From Cryomorphaceae bacterium (GTDB taxonomy: Bacteria > Bacteroidota > Bacteroidia > Flavobacteriales_D > Parvicellaceae): 64,000 bases of DNA. The notes under the pieces are model-generated. The model worked only from the letters and a program-made list of their open reading frames with translations, did not search any database and was not told where the DNA came from. The position numbers and the translations under genes were made by a program. This document shows positions 8,535-40,544 of the stretch, piece by piece. Every line of letters begins with the position of its first letter. The first letter of the stretch is position 1. Location: NCBI GenBank assembly GCA_905182525.1, contig CAJJBV010000004.1, positions 258,068-322,067 of the forward strand. Direction: 5' to 3'.

Positions 8535-10556
8535 GTGAAGTTTAACTTAAAATCTGATTTTTCTCCTACCGGTGATCAACCTGAAGCTATCAAAGATTTG
8601 GTTCAAGGTATTAATGACGGAATTGCTGCTCAAACTCTCTTAGGAGTTACTGGCTCGGGCAAAACATTTACTATTGCCAATGTTATTGAAAAAGTAGAAA
8701 GACCAACATTAATTCTTTCTCATAACAAAACTTTAGCAGCACAATTATATCAAGAGTTTAAAACTTTTTTTCCTGATAATGCCGTTGAGTATTTTGTGTC
8801 TTACTATGACTATTATCAACCTGAAGCATATTTACCATCTTCGGATACTTATATTGAAAAAGACCTTTCAATTAACGATGATATAGAAAAACTTAGATTA
8901 AGTACTACAACTTCTCTTCTTTCAGGGAGAAAAGACGTTATAGTTGTTTCATCAGTTTCTTGTATTTATGGAATTGGAAACCCTGTGAATTTTAGTAATA
9001 GTATTATTACCATTCAAGTTGGTCAAAAAATAGCAAGGAATGTTTTTCTTAGACAGTTAGTAGATAATTTATACTCTAGAACAACAACAGATTTTAAAAG
9101 AGGAAACTTTAGAGTTATTGGTGATACCATTGATATTCATTTAGCTTACGCTGATTTTGGAATAAGAATTTCTTTTTGGGGAGATGAAATTGAATCAATA
9201 GGAATATTAGACTTAGTAAATAATAAAGTTTTAGAAAATCAAGATCAATATGTAATATATCCGGCTAATATTTTTGTAACTGCAAAGGAAGATGTTAAAA
9301 GATCAATTTTTGAAATCCAGGATGATTTGGTAAAACAGATAGATTTTTTTAATGAAATTGGAAAAAACTTAGAATCTAAAAGAATTCAAAATAGAGTAGA
9401 GCTAGATTTAGAAATGATTAGAGAACTTGGCTATTGTTCAGGAATTGAAAACTATTCAAGATATTTTGACAATAGAAAAACTGGTGATAGACCATTTTGT
9501 TTGTTGGATTACTTTCCTGAGGATTTTCTAATGGTTGTAGATGAATCTCATGTAACTGTGCCGCAAATAAGAGCTATGTATGGAGGAGATCGCTCTAGAA
9601 AAGTAAATTTAGTTGATTATGGTTTTAGATTACCAGCAGCTCTTGACAATCGGCCTTTAAAATTTGAAGAGTTCGAACAAGTTCACAATCAAATTATTTA
9701 TGTAAGTGCAACTCCTGCAGAGTATGAGCTAATGAAGTGTGATGGAGTTGTTACAGAGCAATTAATTAGACCTACTGGATTATTAGATCCAGAGATAACC
9801 ATTAAACCAAAACTTAATCAGGTTGATGACTTGTTAGAAGAAATTCGAAAAGTTGTTGAAGAAGACCATCGAGTTCTTGTAACTACACTTACTAAAAGAA
9901 TGGCTGAAGAATTGGATAAGTATTTTGCTAAAATCGGAATAAGATCCAATTATATTCATTCTGATGTCGATACTTTAGACCGTGTAGAAATATTACAAGA
10001 TTTAAGAAAAGGTGTTTTTGATGTTCTTATAGGGGTTAATCTATTAAGAGAAGGTCTTGACTTGCCAGAAGTTTCTTTAGTAGCTATTCTTGATGCAGAT
10101 AATGAAGGATTTTTAAGATCTGTAAGGTCATTAGTGCAAACAGTAGGAAGAGCCGCAAGAAATATTAATGGTCGTGTAATCATGTATGCTGATAGAATTA
10201 CAAAAGCAATGGATACTACAATTAGTGAAACTAATAGAAGGCGCGAAAAGCAAAGAGAATATAATAAAATTAACGGGATCATCCCAACTCAAATTATAAA
10301 ATCAAATGAGAATAATCTTCTTATTGGCAGAGCTAAGGATGAGGATGAATTGAATGAACTTATTGGCTCAAATGAAATTAAAATTCAGGATCCTGTAGTA
10401 GAAAATATGTCTAGAGTGGATCTGGAGAAAAGTATTAACAACATTCAAAGGCAAATGGAAAAAGAAGCAAAAAAGGAAAATTTTATGCAAGCAGCTGTAC
10501 TAAGAGATGATTTATTTAAGTTGAAAAAAATTCTTTTGAAGAAATTTGATGATTAG
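8535..10556 (+). CDS. uvrB: Excinuclease ABC subunit B
   Basis: The damage-verification helicase of nucleotide excision repair, working with UvrA and UvrC. All 673 residues are intact: Walker A TGSGKTFTIAN near residue 40, the beta-hairpin region YYDYYQPEAYLP near 95, the DESH box MVVDESHVTVPQ near 335, helicase motif VSATPAEYE, motif VI QTVGRAARN near 535, and a C-terminal UVR domain around 630-665. Start is the GTG at 8535, directly before KFNLKSDFSPTGDQ. The stop overlaps the convergent gene at 10553 by 4 bases. Confidence 0.97.
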   Translation: MKFNLKSDFSPTGDQPEAIKDLVQGINDGIAAQTLLGVTGSGKTFTIANVIEKVERPTLILSHNKTLAAQLYQEFKTFFPDNAVEYFVSYYDYYQPEAYLPSSDTYIEKDLSINDDIEKLRLSTTTSLLSGRKDVIVVSSVSCIYGIGNPVNFSNSIITIQVGQKIARNVFLRQLVDNLYSRTTTDFKRGNFRVIGDTIDIHLAYADFGIRISFWGDEIESIGILDLVNNKVLENQDQYVIYPANIFVTAKEDVKRSIFEIQDDLVKQIDFFNEIGKNLESKRIQNRVELDLEMIRELGYCSGIENYSRYFDNRKTGDRPFCLLDYFPEDFLMVVDESHVTVPQIRAMYGGDRSRKVNLVDYGFRLPAALDNRPLKFEEFEQVHNQIIYVSATPAEYELMKCDGVVTEQLIRPTGLLDPEITIKPKLNQVDDLLEEIRKVVEEDHRVLVTTLTKRMAEELDKYFAKIGIRSNYIHSDVDTLDRVEILQDLRKGVFDVLIGVNLLREGLDLPEVSLVAILDADNEGFLRSVRSLVQTVGRAARNINGRVIMYADRITKAMDTTISETNRRREKQREYNKINGIIPTQIIKSNENNLLIGRAKDEDELNELIGSNEIKIQDPVVENMSRVDLEKSINNIQRQMEKEAKKENFMQAAVLRDDLFKLKKILLKKFDD

Positions 10557-29778: not shown

Positions 29779-30609
29779 TTATTTCTTTTCTTCTTTCTTT
29801 TTAGGAGCTTCTTTTGCTTTAGGAGTTTCTTCTACTTTTGGAGCTTCTTCTGCTTTTGGAGTTTCTTCTGCTTTTGGAGTTTCTTCTGCTTTTGGAGTTT
29901 CTTCTAGCTTCTTAGGAGCTTCTTCTACTTTTGGAGTTTCTTCTGCTTTTGGAGTTTCTTCTCTGGAGTTCTTCTGCTTGGAGTTTCTTCTGCTTTTGGA
30001 GTTTCTTCTGCTTTGGAGTTTCTTCTGCTTTGGAGCTTCTTCTACTTTGGGAGCTTCTTCTACTTTTGGAGTTTCATCAGCTACAGGAGCTTCTCCAGAT
30101 TCAGCAGTTTCTTCAGATTCAGCAGTTTCTTGCTCTGCTTTAGTAATTTGAACAGCTTCTGCTTCTGCAATTGCTTTAGCTCTTGCTGCATTTTTTTCTT
30201 TTTCTGCGTTTAATGCATCAGATTTCGCTTTTTGATTAGCATTTTCTAAAGAAGATATTTTAGTTTCTATTTTATTTTCTTTTTCTTCAAGCCATTTATT
30301 AAATTTCTCTTCTGCTTGAGCTTCAGTTAACGCACCTTTTTTTATCCCTTTAATAAGGTGGTTTTTATATAAAACTCCTCGATATGATAACATTCCTCTA
30401 ACTGTATCAGTTGGTTGTGCACCAACTCCTACCCAGTGTAATGCTCTTTCAAAATCAATATCTATAATTGCTGGATTTTTGTTAGGATCGTAAGATCCAA
30501 TTCTTTCGATATATCTTCCGTCTCTTTTTGATCTAGAGTCAGCTATAACTACGTGATAAAATGGTTTTCCTTTTTTACCATGTCTTGCAAGTCTAATTTT
30601 TGTTGCCAT
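29779..30609 (-). CDS. rpsP: 30S ribosomal protein S16 with long acidic repeat tail
   Basis: Residues 1-115 are a standard S16 ([56 protein letters not shown]), which stabilises the 16S 5' domain. A helical Ala/Glu/Lys linker follows (about 116-170), then a tail of six-residue repeats ([12 protein letters not shown]) to residue 276. Residues 195-216 (29962-30027) leave this pattern and read [16 protein letters not shown], an out-of-frame reading of the same repeat DNA caused by short-by-one units, after which the frame recovers. Extended S16 tails of this style occur in Flavobacteriales. The core call is secure; tail length is uncertain. Confidence 0.95.
29795..30085 (-). repeat. 18-bp tandem repeat coding [12 protein letters not shown] units in the rpsP tail
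   Basis: On the plus strand the unit is GGAGTTTCTTCTGCTTTT (18 bases) with variants GGAGCTTCTTCTACTTTT. About a dozen and a half units or partial units occur. Several between 29945 and 30035 lack one or two T of the TTTT run, which shifts the frame. Such a tract is prone to slippage in vivo and to consensus errors in assembly. Confidence 0.85.
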
Positions 30610-30706: not shown

Positions 30707-31810
30707 TTATAATAAACTTAATATGTAGCCCATCAAACCACCACCTATAACAATATATGCGCTATTTATTTTCTTGAAAACAAATACTATTGTTAAACTA
30801 AATATTCCAATTAATATCATTTTCCAGTCCGTAATTATTCCTTTTACCATTTCAATACTTACAGCTGCAATAATTGCTACAGCCGCTATATTTACCGCAT
30901 CTAAAAAACTACCGATTAATTTAGATTTTCTCATTTTAGGAATCAATGGATTTAAAATGGCAACAAATATAAATGATGGAATAAAAATCCCAATTGTAGC
31001 AGCAATAGCGCCATAGAAACCATTTATTTGCCAACCAATGAAAGTTGCAGTTGACAATACTGGCCCTGGTGTAAACTGTCCAATTGCTACAGCATCCATT
31101 AATTCATTTCTAGATAACCATCCATTAGCAACTAGTTCAGCATCCAGAAAAGCAAATAGTACATAGCCGCTACCATAAAGTATAGATCCAATTTTTAAGA
31201 AAGTCATGAATATTTTAAAACTTCCTATTGATTTAAATCCTGGAATTAATAAAAATGAATTTGTAAAATTTCTGTTTTTTATTAAATGAAGTAATGTCCC
31301 CATAATTCCACAACTAAAAAGTGCCAAAATTTCATTCATTCCAACTAGACAGACTATTAATGTCCCTATTCCTAATATTCCAATTTCAAAAGACTTAAGT
31401 GCTTTTTTTCCTAACTTATATGCTGCCATAATTATAATTGAAATTACAGCGGGTTTTATACCATATAAAAATGGTTTAACATTGGGTAATTGACCGTATT
31501 GTTCATAAAACCAAGCAAATAATGCTGTAATTAAAACAGCTGGAAAAATAAAACATATCCCTGCAGTAATTAATCCTTTCCACCCTGCACGTTCGTAACC
31601 GCAGTGCATAGTCATTTCGGTTGAATTTGGACCTGGAATTAAATTGGTAGCACCAATTAGGTCAAGAAAATGTTCACGTGTTATCCATTTTCTTTTTTTG
31701 ACAATTTCATCCTCCATCATAGCAATATGAGCAGCAGGACCTCCAAAAGAAATAGCTCCCAGTTTAAAAAAAAGTAATGCTATTTCTTTTAATTTACTGT
31801 TATTAGACAT
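30707..31810 (-). CDS. chrA: Chromate transporter family protein (ChrA)
   Basis: A 367-residue CHR-family inner-membrane transporter with two homologous halves. The N-terminal half has FFKLGAISFGGPAAHIAMM and LIGATNLIPGPNSTEMTMHC; the second half repeats the theme with FLKIGSILYGSGYVLFAFLD and AVAIGQFTPGPVLSTATFIG. The paired GGP/PGPN and PGPV signatures define the family. Some members export chromate, others have unknown oxyanion roles. It starts 12 bases after the corrected end of the DUF6428 gene, itself 7 bases after the Na/Pi symporter gene, so the three form an operon likely controlled from the symporter promoter. Confidence 0.92.
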   Translation of the reverse strand: MSNNSKLKEIALLFFKLGAISFGGPAAHIAMMEDEIVKKRKWITREHFLDLIGATNLIPGPNSTEMTMHCGYERAGWKGLITAGICFIFPAVLITALFAWFYEQYGQLPNVKPFLYGIKPAVISIIIMAAYKLGKKALKSFEIGILGIGTLIVCLVGMNEILALFSCGIMGTLLHLIKNRNFTNSFLLIPGFKSIGSFKIFMTFLKIGSILYGSGYVLFAFLDAELVANGWLSRNELMDAVAIGQFTPGPVLSTATFIGWQINGFYGAIAATIGIFIPSFIFVAILNPLIPKMRKSKLIGSFLDAVNIAAVAIIAAVSIEMVKGIITDWKMILIGIFSLTIVFVFKKINSAYIVIGGGLMGYILSLL

Positions 31811-32301: not shown

Positions 32302-33993
32302 TTATATTTTACCAGCTACAGCTTCACTCACGTTTATAATATGGTCACCAACCTTTTCGCAAGATGAAAAAATATCGTTATACATAATTCCAGATTGAAA
32401 TTTGTATTTTCCTTTTTCTGCTTGCTCAAGATAGGATGTTCTTAATTCATTTCTAAGTTGATTTATTTCTGTTTCTGCTTTTTCTGCATCATCTGTAATT
32501 ATGTGTCCATATTCAGAATTTAAATTTGCAATCATAATTCCAAAAGCTTTTTCAACTTTATCAAGCATTCTATTTATATTATCTCTTTGTTCAGGGAGAA
32601 AATATAGTTTATTTTCGTCCTTTCTTTCAATAGTTTTTGACATTTGATAGTATATATCTCCGATTCTTTCTAAGTCATTTGTAATACTTAGCATCGCTCT
32701 AATTTGAGACGAAGTATTTTGACTAACTTCTTTAGTTGATAAATTTTCTAAATAACTAGCAATTTCCACTTCTACACGATCGGTTATTTCTTCGTATTTT
32801 TTTAGCTTATTAAACATTTTATTTCTAGTTTTTTTGTCTTGATCGTTGATTAATGATTTAATAAACTCATTCATTCTCATAGTAACATCTCCAAATTTAG
32901 CTACCTCTTTTTTTGCTTCTAGAATAGCTACTTCTGGTAATGCAATTCCAGCAGCGCTTATATAATCAAGCTTAAATTCTTCATCTGCATCTCCTTTAGA
33001 CTTTACAAGGCTAGTAGCTATTTTAGCCATAAATGGAACAAAACCCACTAAAAGTAAAACATTGAAAATATTGAAAGTAGTGTGGAAAATTGAAAGTCCA
33101 AGAGGGACAGTAGCAGATTTGTCTTCTGGGTTGAGTGGAGACATGCCCATATAGGTAGTCATATATTGATCAATTAATTCTATAACAAAAGGAAAAGCAA
33201 TAATCATCCATATTACCCCAAATACATTAAATATAAAGTGCGCTCGAGCAGCACGCTTAGCGTGTACATTTGCTACTAATGCAGCTAAATTTGCTGTGAT
33301 AGTTGTTCCGATATTTTCGCCAAGTACCATTGCAGCAGCAAGTTCAAACGGAATGTAGCCTTCAAAACACATTACAAGTGTAAGGGCCATAGCTGCACTT
33401 GATGATTGAACGACAAGAGTTAAAATAGTTCCAACCCCAATAAAAATTATAGTTGAAAAATATCCCTTGTCAGCATAATCAGCTAAAAAACTTAGAAAAC
33501 CAGGGTTTTGTTTTAAATCTGGCACAGCATGTTTTAATTCATCTAGGCCCATAAAAAGTAATGCAAAACCAATTAATACTTCAGCCCAAGCTTTTATATT
33601 TGATTTTTTAGAAAACATTAGCGGAAATCCTACTGCGATTATAGGTAATGCTATAGTAGAAATTTTTATTTTAAAACCTAAAATTGAAATTAGCCAGGCA
33701 GTAATAGTTGTTCCAATATTTGCACCCATTATAACTCCTATAGATTCTACTAGACTTAATAATCCTGCATTTACAAAACTTACTGTCATTACTGTTGTTG
33801 CAGATGATGATTGTAATAAAGCAGTTATAAGAAATCCAGTTGTAATTCCAAGAAACCTATTTGAGGTCATACTACTAAGAATATTTCGCATTTTACTTCC
33901 AGCTACTTTTTGGATGCCATCGCTCATTACTTTCATTCCGTATATAAAGAATCCCAAAGCGCCAATTATTATTAAAAAATCAAAAAATGTCAT
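32302..33993 (-). CDS. Na+/phosphate cotransporter family protein with PhoU-like domain
   Basis: A 563-residue inner-membrane symporter of the NptA/PNaS type. The duplicated QSSS motifs are LLQSSSATTVMTVSF near residue 60 and VVQSSSAAMALTLVM near 198, each paired with a GANIGTTITAW / GENIGTTITANL motif. The last 200 residues are soluble and PhoU-like (SITNDLERIGDIYYQMSKTI). It imports phosphate driven by sodium. A TAGATTTG element and an array of TTAACATAAGG repeats lie upstream, so it is probably phosphate-controlled. It heads an operon with DUF6428 and chrA. Confidence 0.95.
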   Translation of the reverse strand: MTFFDFLIIIGALGFFIYGMKVMSDGIQKVAGSKMRNILSSMTSNRFLGITTGFLITALLQSSSATTVMTVSFVNAGLLSLVESIGVIMGANIGTTITAWLISILGFKIKISTIALPIIAVGFPLMFSKKSNIKAWAEVLIGFALLFMGLDELKHAVPDLKQNPGFLSFLADYADKGYFSTIIFIGVGTILTLVVQSSSAAMALTLVMCFEGYIPFELAAAMVLGENIGTTITANLAALVANVHAKRAARAHFIFNVFGVIWMIIAFPFVIELIDQYMTTYMGMSPLNPEDKSATVPLGLSIFHTTFNIFNVLLLVGFVPFMAKIATSLVKSKGDADEEFKLDYISAAGIALPEVAILEAKKEVAKFGDVTMRMNEFIKSLINDQDKKTRNKMFNKLKKYEEITDRVEVEIASYLENLSTKEVSQNTSSQIRAMLSITNDLERIGDIYYQMSKTIERKDENKLYFLPEQRDNINRMLDKVEKAFGIMIANLNSEYGHIITDDAEKAETEINQLRNELRTSYLEQAEKGKYKFQSGIMYNDIFSSCEKVGDHIINVSEAVAGKI

Positions 33994-34017: not shown

Positions 34018-34025
34018 CAAATCTA
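34018..34025 (-). promoter_or_regulatory. Putative -7 element TAGATTTG of the Na/Pi symporter operon
   Basis: Minus-strand TAGATTTG matches TAnnTTTG and lies 24 bases before the start codon at 33993. No TTG sits at the right -33 distance; instead the last unit of the repeat array ends 27 bases upstream, as expected for an activator-dependent promoter. Confidence 0.5.
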
Positions 34026-34052
34026 TATATCTAAACAACAAGTTTTGTTGAC

Positions 34053-34096
34053 TTAATTAAAGCTTAACATAAGGTTAACATAAGGTCAATTTAACC
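34053..34096 (-). promoter_or_regulatory. Putative Pho-box array for the Na/Pi symporter operon
   Basis: Four contiguous 11-bp units. On the minus strand: GGTTAAATTGA, CCTTATGTTAA, CCTTATGTTAA, GCTTTAATTAA. Two are identical, two degenerate. The ATGTTAA core at 11-bp spacing resembles Pho boxes (TGTCA repeats in E. coli, the TTAACA repeats of Bacillus on the other strand). It lies between the symporter and the porin genes. Confidence 0.6.
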
Positions 34097-34158
34097 AATT
34101 GATTATCAATTACTTTACGTGTATAAATTTTTTATTAACATGATTAATCTGGCTAAAA

Positions 34159-34206
34159 TTAAAGCAACATTAATTAATTGTTAAGATTGACAATGTTTAA
34201 TGTTAA
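34159..34206 (+). promoter_or_regulatory. Putative Pho-box array for the porin gene
   Basis: TTAA cores begin at 34159, 34170, 34181 and 34203, all on an 11-bp register (the 34192 position is degenerate). Two of them are full TGTTAA (34179-34184 and 34201-34206), in the orientation of the porin gene that starts at 34255. No good TAnnTTTG follows, so this array is weaker than the other two. Confidence 0.45.
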
Positions 34207-34254
34207 AACAAAATTTTATTGTTCAATTTGTTGAAATAATTCAAATATTTAAAC

Positions 34255-35391
34255 ATGAAAAAAATATTTATTCTAACATTAATCTTAATCGTTGGTTCTC
34301 TTAATGCACAAGACATTACCAACAATAGATTTGGTAAAGGACTTATTAATGTATTTGCAAAAGATTCTTCTTGGTCTTCTAAAGTTGCTTTTAGATACCA
34401 AACAAGGTATGAAGGAAATTTTGACTTAGAAGAAAGTGATTACTCAGGAAGAGCATTTGTAAGAAGAGCGAGAATTAAAGGGAATGGATTTGCTTTTAGC
34501 CCTAAAGTCACCTATAAATTTGAATACGATGTCGCTAATGGCTATGTTCTAGATGCTGTTGTGAAATGGAATTTTACAGGAAATTGGACGCTTTGGTTTG
34601 GACAAACTAAACTTCCTGGAAACATAGAAAGAGTATTTTCATCTCAAAAACTACAGTTAGTTGATAGATCTCTTCTAAATTCCAAATTCACCCTTGATCG
34701 AGATGCAGGTGCCCAATTAAGACATCACTTTAAATTAGGAAATACATTTTTAGTTAGAGAAATATTTTCATTTTCTCAAGGGGAAGGACTTAACCAAACT
34801 GTTAATTCTACAGGAAATGATTATACGGGGAGAATTGAACTATTGCCATTTGGAAATTTCACTAAAAAGGGAGATTATTTTGCTGCTGATTTAAAACGCG
34901 AAAAAACTCCAAAGCTAATGCTAAGTGCTACTTACGATTTTAACCAAGATGCAATGCGTTCAAGGGGACAAAAAGGAGACTATCTTTTAGGAGATTTAAA
35001 ATCTCTACAAACCCTTTTTATAGATGTACATTTTAAATACCAAGGCTTTTCCTTCTTTGGAGAATTTGTTGACAGAAAAACTTCGGATGGATCAGCTCTT
35101 TTAGAAGGAAGTTTTTCAGATGATGGATTACCTTTAAATGAATCTTACTACACAGGAAAAGCAATTAATCTTCAACTGGGATATTTAATGAATAACAACT
35201 GGGAAATTGCTGGAAGATATACTTCCGTCAATGCTAATGAATATAATAATGATATTAATCAATATACAATTGGATTTTCAAGATATGTAGTAGGTCATAA
35301 TTTAAAAGTTCAAACAGATTTTAGCTATACTACAGAACAAGGGCAAAATGATAAATTATTATTTAGATTACAAACAGAATTTAATTTTTAG
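34255..35391 (+). CDS. Phosphate-selective porin O/P family protein
   Basis: A 378-residue outer-membrane barrel of the OprO/OprP type. The signal peptide is KKIFILTLILIVGSLNAQ. Family features include FRYQTRYEGNFDLEES, then SGRAFVRRARIKGNGF (the arginine-rich segment after the first strands), KYEFEYD-like YKFEYDVANGYVLDAVVKWN, GQTKLPGNIERVFSS and LDRDAGAQLRHHFK. The terminus ends in a phenylalanine strand (LQTEFNF). It would admit phosphate or other anions. It faces away from the Na/Pi symporter gene across a 260-bp region with two repeat arrays, consistent with joint phosphate control. Confidence 0.92.
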   Translation: MKKIFILTLILIVGSLNAQDITNNRFGKGLINVFAKDSSWSSKVAFRYQTRYEGNFDLEESDYSGRAFVRRARIKGNGFAFSPKVTYKFEYDVANGYVLDAVVKWNFTGNWTLWFGQTKLPGNIERVFSSQKLQLVDRSLLNSKFTLDRDAGAQLRHHFKLGNTFLVREIFSFSQGEGLNQTVNSTGNDYTGRIELLPFGNFTKKGDYFAADLKREKTPKLMLSATYDFNQDAMRSRGQKGDYLLGDLKSLQTLFIDVHFKYQGFSFFGEFVDRKTSDGSALLEGSFSDDGLPLNESYYTGKAINLQLGYLMNNNWEIAGRYTSVNANEYNNDINQYTIGFSRYVVGHNLKVQTDFSYTTEQGQNDKLLFRLQTEFNF

Positions 35392-35402
35392 ATAATTTAA
35401 TT

Positions 35403-38240
35403 TTAAAATTTATAGTTATATCCAAAACTAAATAATCTTCCAGGATTCCTTAGACTGAAATTAAGACTTTCAGTACTAAATGATTCAAACTTACTCTCTA
35501 AAGAGTCATTTAAAATATTATTAATTTTGAAGTTTAAAGAAGATCTTCTGTTTTTCCCTATTTCCTTATTAAAATTAAAATTAAGACTATGAAAAGGCAT
35601 AGTGTATACATCAGGTAAAAATCCTGTACCTACTATTTCTAAAGTTTTTCCTTGAATATTATAAAAAAGTCCAGTTTGTAATCCTTTATCAGAATTGGAA
35701 TAATTCAATCCAGTATTAACAAGAAATGGAGCTTGTCCCTGAAGAGTTCTGTAATTACCTAATGTTTCTCCAGCTCGCAGCATATTTTGTCTTAAATTAT
35801 ATTCACTTTCTGAAAAAGACAACTTTGAATTGATGAAAGAGGCATTTATATTTATACTAATATTTTTAAAAATTTTATTTAAAAATGATAAATTTTTTCT
35901 TATTTCAAATTCAACACCTAAAAGAGATGCAGAACCTAAATTTTTAGGTGTAAAATTTGTTGGTGCAGACTCAAAATAGGTCATTTCTATAGGGTCTTGG
36001 AAGTTTTTATAAAACAGGCTAACTGCAAACATTTGTGAAAAATCTCCAAAGTGCTCATATCTTAAATCATAATTTTGTATATAAGATGGCTTAAGGTCAA
36101 TATTTCCTATAAAAGTCATATTTGATAATGGATCGTAAATTTCTGCAATTGAAGCTTCTTTAAAAGATGGTCTTGCAGTAGTTCTAGTTGCACAACCTCT
36201 TATATTACTTTTTTCATTCACTTGTAAAATCAGATTCGCAGTTGGGAATATATCTAATTTATTAATAACATTTTCTCTTATAAAATTAATTCCTTGTTGT
36301 GAGTTTTTTCCTGAATAATACAAATCAAACTTTTCTGCTCTTATTCCTAGTATAGTTCTAATGGAACCAAAAATTTTCACTTCGTTAGAAAGATATCCAG
36401 AGAAATTAGTTTTTTCGGCATTAAATCTTCGAGCATCTTCAAATATTGTAGTATTTGGATTGATGTAAGTTCCTTGATTGTTATTTTCGTTCCATATATT
36501 GTTTACTGTTAGTAAAGAATCTGAAACACCATTATAATTATTCCATTCTTCTAGTGAGGTATATGTAGAACTTATTGAATATTGTCCTATTTCAAAATCT
36601 CGTACTTGATAGCTTGTTAAAACCCCAAATTTAAATTTCGATTTTTTTCCTTCTTGCCCATAATTTTTTGTGAAATCTAGTTTTCCATTCAAATGGTTTT
36701 CGTTTAAAAATCGCCATATTCTTTTGGGTTCAGTGTTTTCCTGAAAACTAAATACGCCGTCTTCATCCTGAAAAGTAGTTGTTCTAATATCTTTATCGTG
36801 AATTCTTGAAATTGTGGGAGATAATTTCCACTCGGTTTTCAACGAAGCATCTTGTGAAGTATGTGTTCCTTGAATCATAAAATTAGTAATACTCCTTTGG
36901 GTATACTCAAGATTATCTTTATTAAAGTCTATAAAATCTGAAAATCTAGTTTGTTGTCTGAATTTACCAGATTTTGACTCTCCATTTTGAATGTGAAGAA
37001 GTGTTAATTTATATTTTGAATGATTAGTTCTGTAAGAAATACCACCAAGAGAACTTAAAATCACATTGTTAATTCCAATATTTCCTTTTTGAGTTCTATT
37101 AGTGTCTAGTGAGAAAATATTTATGTTTGAGTTCTTATTAAAAAAGTTGTTTTCCGCGTTTTCATAAAATTCAGTTTGATTGCTGTATGATAAACTGCCT
37201 ATAATTCCTAAAGTATGCTCATTTTTGCCAACTTCAAATTGATTTCCTATAGAATATCCAAATGAATAATTCATTAAACTTTTAATTTTTACCGCAGACA
37301 TTTGAGGATTAAATTCTTTTGTAAAATTGGATACTCTAAGAGCATCTCCTGAAGATAAATTAAATCTTGGATCTATAATTTGACTAGAATTTCTTAAACT
37401 GGGTAACGCTCTTTTTCCATTGTCAAAACCTAAAAAATCTGTTGAGCTTCCGCTGTTAGTTAAATAATTAGAATTTAAGTGCATTTGAGGGTTAAATCCA
37501 ATTTTTATTTTTAATAATGATGATTTTTTTGAATAAAAATCCTTTGTGATAATATTTACCAAACCACCTGTGAAATCTGCTGGTAAATTAGCACTAAATG
37601 ATTTAGTTATTTGAACATTTTCTAAAATATTTGTTGGAAATAAATCCATTTGAATAGTATTTCTATCAGGATCTAAACCAGGAATATTAATGCCATTTAA
37701 AATTGACTTTGAATATCTATCTCCTAAACCTCTGACATATATATATTTTCCACCCATGATGGAAATTCCAGGAACTCTTTTTATAGCATTTGCTAAATTA
37801 CTTGCCCCTATTTTTTTAAATGATTCTGATGAAATCCCATCCATTAAATTTGCAGATTTTTTTTGCATCCTTAAAAGTGCTTCTTCTGAATTTTTTTTGT
37901 TTGAAACAGAAACGACTAATTCTTTTAATCCAACTGAGGAAGATTCAAGAGATACATTTATATCTTTAATTTCATTTTCTAAAACTTCAACATTTATTAT
38001 TTCCTTTGTTTTGTAACCTACAAATGAATAAATTAAAGTGTATGTACCTGGCGAGATAATAATTGAATAATTTCCATCAAAATCAGTTGTAACCCCTTTA
38101 CTAGATCCTTTTACTAAAACGTTTGCAAAAGGCATTGTTTCATTGAATTCTTCATCTAAAACTTTACCCACTATTTTACTCTGTGAATATCCAATTATAC
38201 TTGTTAAAAGTATTAATAATGTACCTATTGATTTAATCAT
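35403..38240 (-). CDS. TonB-dependent receptor, Pho-cluster member
   Basis: A 945-residue receptor: signal peptide, CarboxypepD_reg domain (VGKVLDEEFNETMPFANVLV), plug with IKRVPGISIMGGKYIYVRGL and LNGINIPGLDPDRNTIQMDL, then a large barrel ending SFGYNYKF. The plug sequence YVRGLGDRYSKSILNG marks a distinct receptor subgroup common in marine Flavobacteriia. Its upstream partner is a beta-helix lipoprotein and the surrounding genes concern phosphate, so it probably imports a phosphorus-containing ligand; the ligand is inference. A perfect hairpin lies 15 bases before its ATG. Confidence 0.94.
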   Translation of the reverse strand: MIKSIGTLLILLTSIIGYSQSKIVGKVLDEEFNETMPFANVLVKGSSKGVTTDFDGNYSIIISPGTYTLIYSFVGYKTKEIINVEVLENEIKDINVSLESSSVGLKELVVSVSNKKNSEEALLRMQKKSANLMDGISSESFKKIGASNLANAIKRVPGISIMGGKYIYVRGLGDRYSKSILNGINIPGLDPDRNTIQMDLFPTNILENVQITKSFSANLPADFTGGLVNIITKDFYSKKSSLLKIKIGFNPQMHLNSNYLTNSGSSTDFLGFDNGKRALPSLRNSSQIIDPRFNLSSGDALRVSNFTKEFNPQMSAVKIKSLMNYSFGYSIGNQFEVGKNEHTLGIIGSLSYSNQTEFYENAENNFFNKNSNINIFSLDTNRTQKGNIGINNVILSSLGGISYRTNHSKYKLTLLHIQNGESKSGKFRQQTRFSDFIDFNKDNLEYTQRSITNFMIQGTHTSQDASLKTEWKLSPTISRIHDKDIRTTTFQDEDGVFSFQENTEPKRIWRFLNENHLNGKLDFTKNYGQEGKKSKFKFGVLTSYQVRDFEIGQYSISSTYTSLEEWNNYNGVSDSLLTVNNIWNENNNQGTYINPNTTIFEDARRFNAEKTNFSGYLSNEVKIFGSIRTILGIRAEKFDLYYSGKNSQQGINFIRENVINKLDIFPTANLILQVNEKSNIRGCATRTTARPSFKEASIAEIYDPLSNMTFIGNIDLKPSYIQNYDLRYEHFGDFSQMFAVSLFYKNFQDPIEMTYFESAPTNFTPKNLGSASLLGVEFEIRKNLSFLNKIFKNISININASFINSKLSFSESEYNLRQNMLRAGETLGNYRTLQGQAPFLVNTGLNYSNSDKGLQTGLFYNIQGKTLEIVGTGFLPDVYTMPFHSLNFNFNKEIGKNRRSSLNFKINNILNDSLESKFESFSTESLNFSLRNPGRLFSFGYNYKF

Positions 38241-38254
38241 ATTATTTTATAATA

Positions 38255-38290
38255 AATAACTGCCTTATGAAAATTCACAAGGCAGTTATT
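38255..38290. promoter_or_regulatory. Perfect 12-bp inverted repeat just upstream of the TonB receptor ATG
   Basis: AATAACTGCCTT (38255-38266) and AAGGCAGTTATT (38279-38290) form a perfect hairpin with a 12-base loop. On the transcript from the lipoprotein gene it lies before the receptor start codon (38240). It lacks a U-run on its 3' side in that direction; on the plus strand it is followed by AAAAAA. It may be an mRNA-stability or attenuation structure between the two genes. Confidence 0.6.
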
Positions 38291-38313
38291 AAAAAACTAT
38301 TTAAGTTGTTAAT

Positions 38314-39630
38314 TTATAATGCTCCTTTTTCATTTGCATATGTCCATGAAAATTCAGATTCATCCGCACCTACGCTATTAGAATTATTACTTACTATGTT
38401 ACATATTGTAATACCATCGGATTCAAAAGTTGATCCAACAGAAGATCTATCGTTGAAAATAGAGCCGTTTGTTAGGTTTGTTGTAAAACAATCATTGCCA
38501 TCGGAGTTTGATGGAGAAAACTCAAACCCTGAAAACTTCAAGTTTCCAGATTTGTAGCTTAATGCATCTGCATCTGCATCTAGCTCGATATCTTTTCCGC
38601 TAGTAAAATTTTTTATAAAAATATTTAAATTGTTTCCAGTTGCTCCTTTTCTATAATCTGCAATTTCCCCATCAACGCCAGTTGCAATGCACTCGTTATT
38701 TGTTCCAACTAATGTTAAATTATTTAAGGTAAAACTTCCAGTAGCAGAGCCCTCTGGGCCATCAATTTCTAAAGCATGATCAGATGCATCGTTTAAAATA
38801 ACCATAGAGTTAGATATTGTCCCTGAATAAGCTTGGTCAATATCCAATCCATCGTCTCCTTGTCCCCAAACTAATAATTCAGAAGCATTAACTGTACCGC
38901 CAAAAAATTCTATTCCATCATCTACATTTCCTACTATTTCTATATGGTCAATAGTTGTTGCTGAGCCAACACAACCAAGAGTTAGTCCATTGATTTCATT
39001 GCCTTCTCCAATTTCAGCACCACCATGTCTTATAGATAAATATTGAATAATTCCTGAATTATCTAAAGGGTTATTCCCCCCATAAAGTCCGTTTGTTTCA
39101 GATGCAGGAATACCTTCAATTTGAAACTCTATGACATCTCCAGAAAAAGATCCAGGGGCATATCCTAGTATTAATAAACCTCCCCAGAGTCCTCTTACAT
39201 TTTCTGATAAAGAAGATCCAGAATTAGAGCCAATTGAAATATCATCTGATTCTGAAGTCATTATAATAGGTGAACTCTCAGTTCCTTGAGCAAATAATTT
39301 TCCACCTCTAGCAATAACTAAAGAAGTTGCATTAGCACCTGTTCCAGCCTTAGATTTAATAATGGTTCCTGCAGGAATTGTTAATGTAACCCCATTTGGA
39401 ACAATAACCCTTCCTTGCATAGACCAAATTACAGTAGGATCTAATGTTTTATCTGAATTTAAGGTTCCAGTTAGTAAATAATCCTCTTGGATATATTCAC
39501 AACTACCATCATCTTTACTTGTTTGTGAGTTATAATTTGTTGCGTTTGGATCAGTACATCCTTTTTTTTGACAACTGCAAATTGATATGCAAATTATAAT
39601 TAGAATAGAAGTTAATTTTGTATTTTTCAT
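38314..39630 (-). CDS. Right-handed beta-helix lipoprotein, partner of the TonB receptor
   Basis: A 438-residue lipoprotein. The signal ends in ISICSCQ with the lipid cysteine; then the Flavobacteriia Cys motif GCTDPNATNYNSQTSKDDGSC (a short calcium-loop-like segment), and a parallel beta-helix body. It has repeated turns such as GVTLTIPAGTIIKSKAG, IQYLSIRHGGAEIG, DHIEIVGNVDDGIEFFGG and ELLVWGQGDDGLDID. A surface-exposed ligand-binding or enzyme role is likely. It is transcribed just before the receptor gene, with a hairpin between. Positioned next to phoB with a shared control region. Confidence 0.88.
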   Translation of the reverse strand: MKNTKLTSILIIICISICSCQKKGCTDPNATNYNSQTSKDDGSCEYIQEDYLLTGTLNSDKTLDPTVIWSMQGRVIVPNGVTLTIPAGTIIKSKAGTGANATSLVIARGGKLFAQGTESSPIIMTSESDDISIGSNSGSSLSENVRGLWGGLLILGYAPGSFSGDVIEFQIEGIPASETNGLYGGNNPLDNSGIIQYLSIRHGGAEIGEGNEINGLTLGCVGSATTIDHIEIVGNVDDGIEFFGGTVNASELLVWGQGDDGLDIDQAYSGTISNSMVILNDASDHALEIDGPEGSATGSFTLNNLTLVGTNNECIATGVDGEIADYRKGATGNNLNIFIKNFTSGKDIELDADADALSYKSGNLKFSGFEFSPSNSDGNDCFTTNLTNGSIFNDRSSVGSTFESDGITICNIVSNNSNSVGADESEFSWTYANEKGAL

Positions 39631-39734
39631 TTTTATTAATTCGAAGTTTATTTTTAGTTTTTAATTTCTCCAACAAAGGAATATAATGTTGATCATATCT
39701 TTGTTTTTCAAATAGTTATTAAACTTTTATATAT

Positions 39735-39842
39735 ATGTTACTCCCATGTTAATGCGTATTAAGTAAATGTTAACTGATTTAATTTTTTAATGTTAATTTA
39801 ATGTTCCATTAACTTTACTCACACACTAATAAAATAATTTTG
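39735..39842 (+). promoter_or_regulatory. Putative Pho-box array and -7 element controlling phoB
   Basis: TTAA-type cores begin at 39738 (TTAC), 39749, 39759, 39770, 39779, 39793 and 39804 (TTCC), i.e. spacings of 11, 10, 11, 9, 14, 11. Three are preceded by ATG to give ATGTTAA. TAATTTTG (39835-39842), a perfect TAnnTTTG, begins 27 bases after the last unit, the same spacing as at the symporter promoter. Transcription would start near 39849, favouring translation from the ATG at 39870. The same region may also serve the divergent lipoprotein gene. Confidence 0.6.
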
Positions 39843-39869
39843 ATGCCAGATAATATTGAAAAGAAACCT

Positions 39870-40544
39870 ATGCCAAAAATCCTACTAGTAGATGACGAGC
39901 CAGATATTATTGAATTAATTCAATATCATCTTGAAAAGGAAGGTTATTTAGTTAAAACAGCTAAAAATGGAGTAGAAGGTTTAAAAGTTGCTAAATCTTT
40001 TGTGCCTGATTTAATACTTTTGGATGTAATGATGCCCGAAATGGATGGTATTGAAGCTTGTATTGAGCTTAGAAAAGACAATACTTTAAATAGTACTTTA
40101 ATAGCATTTCTGACAGCAAGAGCTGAAGATTATTCTCATGTAGCAGGCTTAGATTCTGGAGCCGATGATTACATAACTAAACCCATAAAACCAAGAGTAT
40201 TATTAAGTAAAATTAAAGCATTATTACGAAGGTCAACCGTAAATCAAATTATTAAAAATGATAAAGTTTCTTTAGAAATAAACAGAGATAAATATATTGT
40301 AATATGTGAAGGTAAAGAGTTTACACTACCTAAAAAAGAATTTGAATTACTGGCACTTCTTTTTTCAAAACCTGGAAACGTTTTTACTAGAGAAGCAATA
40401 TTGGCCAAGGTTTGGGGAGATGATATTGTGGTAGGGGATAGAACAATTGATGTTCACATAAGAAAATTAAGAGAAAAAATTGGAGATGTAAATATTAAAA
40501 CAATTAAAGGAGTGGGGTATAAGCTAAACTTGAATGTCAATTAA
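39870..40544 (+). CDS. phoB: PhoB-like response regulator (OmpR/PhoB family)
   Basis: A two-domain response regulator of 225-234 residues. The receiver has KILLVDDEPDIIELI (acidic pair), LILLDVMMPEMDGIE (phosphoacceptor Asp), the LTARAED Thr region and DDYITKPIKP (conserved Lys). A winged-helix effector ends with RTIDVHIRKLREKIG and IKTIKGVGYKL. I prefer the ATG at 39870 since MPKILLVDDE is the usual beginning and a promoter element covers 39835-39842; an ATG at 39843 adds nine residues. No histidine kinase lies beside it, unlike most phoB loci. It probably binds the local repeat arrays, including its own. Confidence 0.88.
   Translation: MPKILLVDDEPDIIELIQYHLEKEGYLVKTAKNGVEGLKVAKSFVPDLILLDVMMPEMDGIEACIELRKDNTLNSTLIAFLTARAEDYSHVAGLDSGADDYITKPIKPRVLLSKIKALLRRSTVNQIIKNDKVSLEINRDKYIVICEGKEFTLPKKEFELLALLFSKPGNVFTREAILAKVWGDDIVVGDRTIDVHIRKLREKIGDVNIKTIKGVGYKLNLNVN

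Follow-up and report, generated by a model that had tools for sequence, protein, structure and literature searches.

Candidate Pho boxes in a flavobacterial phosphate cluster: 11-bp direct repeats held in fixed phase to the -7 element

Introduction

What would bind the TGTTAA-like repeats that punctuate a flavobacterial phosphate gene cluster, and how would the bound protein act on the promoters beside them? In the window (the whole stretch of DNA analysed, 64,000 nucleotides), arrays of such repeats at an 11-bp register precede the genes for a Na/Pi symporter, a phosphate-selective-type porin and a PhoB-type response regulator, and a first-pass annotation had taken them to mark a candidate flavobacterial Pho box. 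The sigmaA promoter of Bacteroidota is unusual. Its consensus is TAnnTTTG at -12 to -5 (PMC9723704). The Pho box as a kind is already known: that of E. coli PhoB consists of 11-bp tandem direct repeats on which OmpR-type monomers sit head-to-tail and activate phosphate uptake genes (PMC4415409).

Results

Unseeded motif discovery in the phoB and Na/Pi symporter promoters of relatives returned cTTAACATTnnnTTAACATt, direct repeats 11 bp apart, with a log-likelihood of 296 versus at most 85 in shuffles. The reverse complement of this motif is the TGTTAA word reported earlier, and the single site is TTAACATT (complement AATGTTAA) with a period of 11 bp. A PWM scan of the 64 kb window recovers the three arrays of the first-pass annotation as the three best matches, with the symporter array ranked first (21.1 bits at 34063) and the porin array third (18.5 bits at 34166). 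When 391 kb of sequence drawn from 20 genomes was scanned, 40 PWM matches reached at least 14 bits; 31 of them precede the five cluster genes, and a single one overlaps an open reading frame, which is an extended phoB frame. The 11-bp repeats are kept upstream of phoB, symporter, porin and PstS-type orthologues in related Flavobacteriales, where their phase relative to the -7 box is fixed as well, and this conservation at orthologous genes supports the candidate Pho box, with binding as a prediction from sequence. The features of the cluster are collected in Table 1.

Table 1 Coordinates of the phosphate cluster genes, putative Pho boxes and -7 elements in the window
Feature	Position	Strand	Description
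Na/Pi symporter with PhoU-like tail	32302..33993	-	proposed target gene; PF02690 6e-61, PF01895 5e-12
Symporter -7 element TAGATTTG	34018..34025	-	predicted TSS ~34013, 5'UTR ~20 nt
Putative symporter Pho-box array	34053..34096	-	reversed polarity, ATGTTAA toward gene
Putative porin Pho-box array	34168..34206	+	reversed polarity: CATTAA 34168, TGTTAA 34179, TGTTAA 34201
Porin -7-like element TCAATTTG	34223..34230	+	TTTG conserved, TA not
Phosphate-selective-type porin	34255..35391	+	proposed target gene; PF07396 7e-08
TonB-dependent receptor of the cluster	35403..38240	-	PF13715, PF07715; synteny, position of Fjoh_0545
Lipoprotein, divergent from phoB	38314..39630	-	probable target; position of F. 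johnsoniae FII/Fjoh_0546; no Pfam match
Distal part of phoB-lipoprotein intergenic array	39734..39773	-	TTAACATG (5' base 39752), GTAACATA (39741), TTAACATT (39773)
Putative phoB-proximal Pho box	39787..39816	+	canonical polarity: TTAATGTT 39787, TTAATGTT 39798, TTAACTTT 39809
phoB -7 element TAATTTTG	39835..39842	+	in orthologues TAATTTAG, TAATTTAT or TACCTTTA
phoB, OmpR/PhoB-type response regulator	39870..40544	+	Response_reg + Trans_reg_C

Could these arrays be nothing more than TTAA words that arise by chance in AT-rich intergenic DNA, or AT-rich elements common to promoters in general? At a GC content of 29%, the word arrays by themselves are marginal against chance: no three-unit array in the window scores above 16/18, and of 20 Markov sequences 2 attained this score. 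Nor do exact pairs outnumber the reversed control (one TGTTAAN5TGTTAA in the 2.19 Mb genome versus three). Word-array statistics of the window were for this reason set aside as evidence, and a regulon list from word patterns in this genome (22 matches versus 12 in the control, many of them intragenic) was rejected as too weak. The significance of the arrays derives instead from placement, conservation and geometry. The genome matches the TGTTAA-N5-TGTTAA-N38-TAnnTTTG composite exactly at one place only, in the symporter promoter.

The geometry is apparent when the units are measured from the -7 box. At phoB, the symporter and the lipoprotein gene, TTAACATT starts 26, 37, 48 or 59 bp before TAnnTTTG, and in most promoters and genomes, phoB included, the units read TTAACATT toward the gene at 26+11k bp before -7. 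This canonical phase of 4 mod 11 is non-random in the symporter (p 6/2000) and phoB (0/2000) sets, as well as in two sets held out from motif training, the lipoprotein (0/2000) and PstS-type promoters (13/2000). Phase is flat in mgsA control promoters (1408/2000). Symporter and porin promoters of this genus and some relatives carry the opposite polarity at 24+11k bp and are still phase-locked, at 2 mod 11 (p 0/2000 in each set). Spacing and phase are thus conserved in several genes and families, and neither is seen in the mgsA controls. The box plus its spacing to -7 was also matched 52 times in 199 genomes of the order, versus 7 times in the reversed control. Together, these results leave an origin by chance or by general AT-richness scarcely conceivable. 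Genes behind the order-wide matches include symporters, a Pst-type permease, polyphosphate kinase and PhoU-like proteins.

At the symporter, the core units are TGTTAA at 34080-34075 and 34069-34064 of the minus strand, flanked by the degenerate outer units AATTGA (34091) and AATTAA (34058). Counted upstream from the -7 box, the two TGTTAA words start at 55 and 44 bp, as do units in seven orthologous symporter promoters (L054-L060), while a second symporter family has units at 54/43 or 55. All seven close orthologues have TAGATTTG or TAAATTTG as the -7 element. Upstream of 30 symporter orthologues, 17 GTTAA pairs spaced by 11 bp were counted versus 0.1 expected; among the orthologue promoters examined, the array is absent from several symporters outside Flavobacteriales.

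Counted upstream from the -7-like element, the porin units start at 55, 44 and 22 bp. Their TTAA cores lie at 34159, 34170, 34181 and 34203, just as first described, and the 34192 position is empty. In porin orthologues AATGTTAA offsets peak at 24, 46 and 57, and the TTTG is kept in 8 of 8 aligned promoters.

Upstream of phoB, cores occur at 39738, 39749, 39759, 39770, 39793 and 39804, and the core steps of 11, 10, 11, 23 and 11 bp show that the register is broken. The proximal units, 48, 37 and 26 bp upstream of -7, have the polarity and spacing of phoB in the rest of the order, where these same three offsets top the orthologue profile. In five close orthologues this block is near-invariant and the alignment is gap-free, so that the distance from array to -7 is fixed; a clear array is absent in four other phoB orthologues (L027, L038, L047 and L053). 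The first-pass annotation had all three arrays pointing TGTTAA toward the nearest downstream gene, which describes the symporter and porin but not phoB, where the conserved proximal units read in the TTAACATT polarity. It had also noted that the last unit ends 27 bases before the -7 element in two arrays. The arithmetic is right, but those last units are degenerate (AATTAA, TGTTCC) and the conserved spacing differs; we therefore use 55/44 for the symporter and 48/37/26 for phoB instead. The absence of a -33 TTG was borne out: for each of the three -7 boxes, inspection found no TTG at a distance of 17-23 bp upstream.

The phoB coding sequence likely starts at ATG 39870 (MPKILLVDDE) rather than at 39840/39843. 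A start at 39843 was rejected since it lies upstream of the predicted TSS and the second ATG is conserved, being kept in all five aligned array-bearing orthologues.

To which gene do the distal units of the phoB-lipoprotein intergenic region belong? The distal TGTTAC/TGTTAA pair (39736-39752) is better read as TTAACA units, and the distal units are probably a box of the divergent lipoprotein gene, as judged from orthologous promoters. There, TTAACATT units occur at 59, 37 and 70; in the window, the pair is found 71 and 60 bp from TTCCTTTG (39681-39674) on its upstream side and misses the 70/59 phase by a single base. Lipoprotein upstream regions reach at least 11 bits in 29 of 30 cases, against a null 95th percentile of 9.9. 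The gene is present in 162 of the 199 genomes of the order and adjoins phoB and the TonB receptor gene in most relatives. A second lipoprotein gene (C1:464184, L007) was rejected as a target on account of its weak score and lack of phase to a -7 box.

The phoB product carries receiver and winged-helix domains, as a PhoB response regulator does. Its two best families are the NCBIfam PhoB equivalogs NF053854 and TIGR02154, despite scores below their curated cut-offs (204 versus 270 and 203 versus 296 bits), so that the name phoB is owed to the box and to synteny with Fjoh_0544 rather than to an equivalog model. The recognition helix DRTIDVHIRKLR is kept in nearly all phoB orthologues read. A PhoR-like kinase gene (C2:414188-415225) is unlinked to phoB; its product is 50% identical to the phoB-linked kinase of another genome (G022), and its promoter is without the box. 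A search of the genome found no PstS.

In this genome, mgsA (methylglyoxal synthase) has a box at exactly canonical geometry; as a conserved target it was rejected, with the box not kept upstream of 25 other mgsA homologues, and it is recorded as a lead only.

Discussion

The arrays combine two or more direct repeats of 11-bp period, a location upstream of phosphate acquisition and regulator genes that is kept in orthologues, and a fixed position relative to a core promoter with a poor -35/-33 element. We therefore have high confidence in the reading of these arrays as Pho boxes, namely head-to-tail sites for the neighbouring PhoB-type regulator at activator-dependent promoters, and the repeats are very probably the landing sites of this phosphate-starvation switch. 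Several observations speak against it: the regulator scores below the PhoB equivalog cut-offs, PstS is missing from the genome, the PhoR-like kinase gene is unlinked and box-free, the array is not clear at some phoB orthologues and is absent at several symporters outside Flavobacteriales, and the OprP porin of the F. johnsoniae locus shows no induction (PMC8115612). A different OmpR-family regulator, either ArcA-like or a second PhoB-like paralogue, might be proposed to bind the arrays instead, with control of the cluster unrelated to phosphate. The direct repeat recognised by E. coli ArcA is similar, the Riemerella PhoP motif is noted as ArcA-like (PMC9603813), and a second, ~36%-identical regulator lies in the cluster of some relatives (L144, L145 and L147). 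However, the order-wide matches precede phosphate genes, the box is found in the phoB promoter itself, a PhoB-type regulator is encoded in the cluster of nearly all relatives, and this genome has no second strong PhoB homologue at E <= 1e-50, which makes control by another regulator improbable.

Under the preferred Pho box reading, the PhoR-like kinase encoded elsewhere in the genome would phosphorylate PhoB when phosphate is scarce, as its homology suggests, and PhoB dimers would bind at least two adjacent units in tandem, as expected from the repeat geometry and known PhoB structures. The sequence shows that the array so occupied is locked in helical phase to the TAnnTTTG -7 element downstream of it. 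Since the -7 element lacks a good -33 TTG and the array stands in fixed phase to it, we propose that bound PhoB recruits sigmaA RNA polymerase. Such recruitment would switch on phoB itself together with the symporter and porin genes, and probably also the lipoprotein-TonB receptor unit that diverges from phoB.

How can arrays of two polarities serve one regulator? We know of no rule that makes one repeat polarity obligatory in Pho boxes. One hypothesis is that either polarity can serve for activation by a single PhoB whose recognition helix is unchanged, as long as the cores stay close to one helical phase relative to -7 (TTAACATT at 26+11k, AATGTTAA at 24+11k); we hold this view tentatively, and if it is true, activation in this sigma system depends on phase and not on the direction of the tandem array. 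An alternative hypothesis retains a single polarity and treats the symporter and porin units as same-strand TTAACNTT copies overlapping the palindromic TTAA. Many of these units are indeed followed by TTAANNTT, and scores in the TTAACATT polarity at offsets 42 and 53 are next best, but AATGTTAA scores clearly higher (7.4 and 5.9 versus 4.4 and 2.0) and its core departs from the canonical core phase by no more than 2 bp, whereas the alternative would be about half a turn off. A single polarity is for these reasons unlikely. The two polarities raise the mechanistic question of whether tandem PhoB arrays need to point at the polymerase at all, and the phase offers a simple promoter-shift test of an OmpR-type activator working with the Bacteroidota polymerase. 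Moreover, because the same repeats stand at a fixed promoter distance across the order, the phosphate response can be read from sequence, and a box with measurable phase to TAnnTTTG would make phosphate regulons predictable in uncultured flavobacteria.

In the open-licence literature searched, we found neither the order-wide sequence, promoter geometry and two-polarity layout nor a description of an activator site at a defined distance to the Bacteroidota sigmaA promoter. Like the E. coli PhoB box, the arrays are 11-bp tandem repeats close upstream of promoters of phosphate uptake genes; the unit here is TTAACATT and that of E. coli CTGTCAT, and the promoter served is the TAnnTTTG type of Bacteroidota. 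The E. coli box is placed 10 bp upstream of the -10 hexamer (PMC1906773), whereas the present arrays mostly extend to a greater distance, with units 26 to 59 bp before -7. The same source describes the cyanobacterial SphR box as 8-bp direct repeats with 3-bp linkers, and its CTTAACCT is very close to the cTTAACAT of these arrays (PMC1906773). The SphR unit ends in CCT and ours in CAT, the promoter class differs and, unlike here, use in two polarities is not described for SphR in that part of the paper (PMC1906773). Within the same bacterial order, DNA binding by PhoP of Riemerella anatipestifer, a possible orthologue of the regulator, was found in DAP-seq and EMSA, and self-regulation was shown by EMSA (PMC9603813). 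The most conserved letters of its motif are TTTAACA; in the part of the report used here, the motif is described as ArcA-like with 583 peaks and is not tied to an 11-bp architecture, a -7 box or phosphate uptake genes (PMC9603813).

By synteny, the cluster matches the phosphate-starvation-induced PhoBR locus of Flavobacterium johnsoniae. The F. johnsoniae PhoBR operon/PUSIV cluster likewise gathers porin, phoB, TonB receptor and lipoprotein genes in one neighbourhood, and the paper describing it makes no mention of a Pho box (PMC8115612). That cluster is largely induced by phosphate depletion, with log2FC values in phosphate starvation of 3.1 for phoB, 8.0 for the receptor and 9.9 for the lipoprotein, and its OprP porin is without induction (PMC8115612). 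In contrast to F. johnsoniae, phoR is unlinked here and the symporter gene lies within the cluster.

Conservation of an 11-bp repeat in front of phosphate genes

TTAA words are common in the window, which has a GC content of 29%. Words alone prove nothing here, because the top three-unit TGTTAA array in the window, that of the symporter, was matched by 2 of 20 Markov sequences, the exact TGTTAA pair at 11-bp spacing occurs once in the genome, and a three-unit search of the genome returned 22 matches versus 12 in the control. The case is carried by placement and conservation.

Orthologues of phoB and of the Na/Pi symporter are present in 51 and 44 of 60 relatives, respectively. GTTAA pairs spaced by 11 bp occur 17 times upstream of 30 symporters, with a second peak at 22 bp, and 6 times upstream of 30 phoB genes, versus 0.1 expected from dinucleotide shuffles in each case; the sequences are related and the counts not independent, and the matches are spread across several families. 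Moreover, unseeded motif discovery on both strands of 54 upstream regions converged from many starts on cTTAACATTaAaTTAAcATt, with a log-likelihood of 296 versus 72 to 85 for shuffled sets. Over the whole window, the three best matches to this matrix lie at 34063 (21.1 bits), 39755 (19.3 bits) and 34166 (18.5 bits), the next reaching 13.7 bits, and they are the three arrays that the first-pass annotation had put forward as a candidate Pho box before symporter, porin and phoB; all its array coordinates were correct on rechecking. Scoring of 391 kb from 20 relatives gave 40 places of at least 14 bits. Of these, 31 precede the five cluster genes (symporter, OprO/P-like porin, TonB-dependent receptor, lipoprotein and phoB), many of whose promoters were in the training set, while the rest of the 391 kb and of the window DNA lay outside it. 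All but one of the 40 are intergenic, the fortieth overlapping only an over-extended phoB frame, and most of those not in front of a cluster gene adjoin small secreted proteins from this neighbourhood.

Promoter geometry and phase

How are the repeats placed relative to the promoter? Flavobacterial sigmaA promoters carry TAnnTTTG at -12 to -5 (PMC9723704), here called the -7 element, and offsets run from unit start to this element. A TGTTAA-type unit stands exactly 55 and 44 bp upstream in seven symporter promoters, drawn from three genera, and three from another family have units at 54/43 or 55. In other Flavobacteriales symporters, TTAACATT at 48 and 37 gives the top two of 102 offsets, and the top three at phoB promoters are 26, 37 and 48. 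The strongest test of this geometry is the lipoprotein gene, which lay outside training, as did the genomes supplying its 12 promoters of family f8; its top four offsets are 59, 48, 37 and 26. Symporter, phoB and lipoprotein promoters all fall at phase 4 modulo 11, with random-roll p values of 6/2000, 0/2000 and 0/2000. So do PstS-type genes (13/2000), which served nominally as a control despite being phosphate genes; the mgsA control was flat, with no phase to -7. Reversed-polarity sets, in which TGTTAA points toward the gene, have phase 2 in common at symporter and porin (0/2000 each). The DNA itself establishes repeat unit, period, phase to the -7 element, conservation and target genes, and binding to the arrays would activate transcription.

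In three symporter upstreams annotated as Portibacter/Saprospiraceae (L192, L210 and L251), the distance from box start to TAnnTTTG is 28 bp. This is shorter by two units than the usual 49 bp of Flavobacteriales symporters and close to the spacing in E. coli.

Promoter elements and repeat units in the window
Feature	Sequence	Position	Strand	Remark
Symporter -7	TAGATTTG	34025-34018	minus	
Symporter units		34080 and 34069	minus	reversed polarity
Porin -7	TCAATTTG	34223-34230		
Porin units		34168, 34179, 34201		reversed polarity
phoB -7	TAATTTTG	39835-39842		
phoB units	TTAATGTT, TTAATGTT, TTAACTTT	39787, 39798, 39809		canonical
Distal units		39734-39773		read TTAACA toward divergent lipoprotein gene

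The distal units had been assigned to phoB at first pass, but their polarity faces the lipoprotein gene instead. Upstream of TTCCTTTG (39681-39674), they stand at distances of 71 and 60 bp, and the relatives' peaks fall at 70 and 59. Translation of phoB probably begins at 39870, since the first ATG precedes the predicted transcription start and the 5 aligned orthologues conserve the second. With these starts, symporter, porin and phoB have leaders of about 20 to 23 nt, similar to the published median, 24 nt (PMC9723704). Reversed polarity at symporter and porin is the structural point held with least certainty, because the unit contains the palindromic TTAA.

An order-wide scan without gene information

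The canonical composite TTAACATT-N3-TTAACATT-N29-TAnnTTTG, allowing at most 2 mismatches and using no gene information, had 52 matches in 199 genomes versus 7 for the pattern read backwards. Most have a gene start about 15 to 60 bases downstream, and some further (119 bases for a polyphosphate kinase). The genes behind them include several Na/Pi symporters, a Pst-type permease, two PhoU_div proteins, a PhoB-type regulator, a TonB receptor, one OmpA protein and a chromate transporter, a type of gene that also adjoins the symporter in the window.

The only canonical-geometry match in the window's own genome is upstream of mgsA (G000:C1:24285-24340, minus strand; loci L003/L255), where a TTAACGTAAGGTTAACATT box stands at the exact canonical distance from TAGTTTTA; it is not conserved in the other mgsA upstreams examined. 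Since methylglyoxal synthase releases phosphate, mgsA could be a species-specific target.

Regulator, kinase and cluster genes

Which protein would act at these arrays? We infer that it is PhoB. The two top NCBIfam families of the regulator are PhoB, with scores below both cut-offs. Its recognition helix GDRTIDVHIRKLRE is identical in nearly all orthologues read from both polarity groups (one genus has GERTIDVHIRKLRE, and one orthologue contains unresolved letters), and for this reason polarity does not track a change in the DNA-reading helix. A PhoR-like kinase gene (G000:C2:414188-415225, L312) is unlinked to phoB and has no Pho box, and its product is 50% identical to a relative's kinase that is linked to phoB; several relatives have a kinase-sized gene directly 3' of phoB. 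One relative (G016) has two phoB copies (L140:3767-4462 and 9153-9845), each about 83% identical to that of the window, flanking the lipoprotein-TonB receptor pair. Some relatives (L144:10075-10776, L145:13731-14417 and L147:6665-7363) have in their phosphate cluster another OmpR-type regulator with about 36% identity to PhoB, which adjoins the symporter in two of them.

In the 2.19-Mb genome, which probably belongs to the Flavobacteriales judging by its genes and by the named loci closest to it, Pfam assigns the cluster a Na/Pi symporter with a PhoU-like tail, a Porin_O_P porin, a TonB-dependent receptor and an OmpR-type response regulator; the lipoprotein has no Pfam match. The symporter is the plausible main phosphate importer, because neither the genome nor its genus has a PstS by PF12849. 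A ChrA-family (chromate-transporter) gene at 30707-31810 (minus strand) adjoins symporter or phoB in several genomes, has its own canonical box at canonical spacing in one relative (L338), and may be an anion transporter that serves the phosphate response. A ribosomal protein S16-like ORF (29779-30609, minus strand) has a long low-complexity C-terminal extension of PKAEETPK type, part of which turns into a KSRRNSK-like reading, as though frame-shifted.

Relation to known systems

We found no earlier description of this order-wide box in the open-licence papers searched. Phosphate depletion induces the matching F. johnsoniae locus (OprP, PhoR, PhoB, TonB receptor and lipoprotein FII), with strong induction of receptor and lipoprotein, hardly any of PhoR (log2FC 0.8) and none of OprP (-1.3), in a paper that does not mention a Pho box (PMC8115612). 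Phosphate starvation would be the signal here. In a DAP-seq study of DNA bound by a Riemerella anatipestifer PhoP, the most conserved letters are TTTAACA, with EMSA support (PMC9603813); by analogy, this makes the core word less novel and raises confidence that regulators of this type read it. Elsewhere, Pho boxes consist of 11-bp direct repeats (PMC4415409), and the cyanobacterial unit CTTAACCT is nearly identical to the one found here (PMC1906773).

Matches of 18-25 bits also precede small secreted proteins in relatives (L150:10501, L142:14509, L149:1422 and L144:18727). These proteins of ~130-155 aa look alike, lie within or beside the phosphate cluster, and are a candidate for an unstudied phosphate-starvation protein family.
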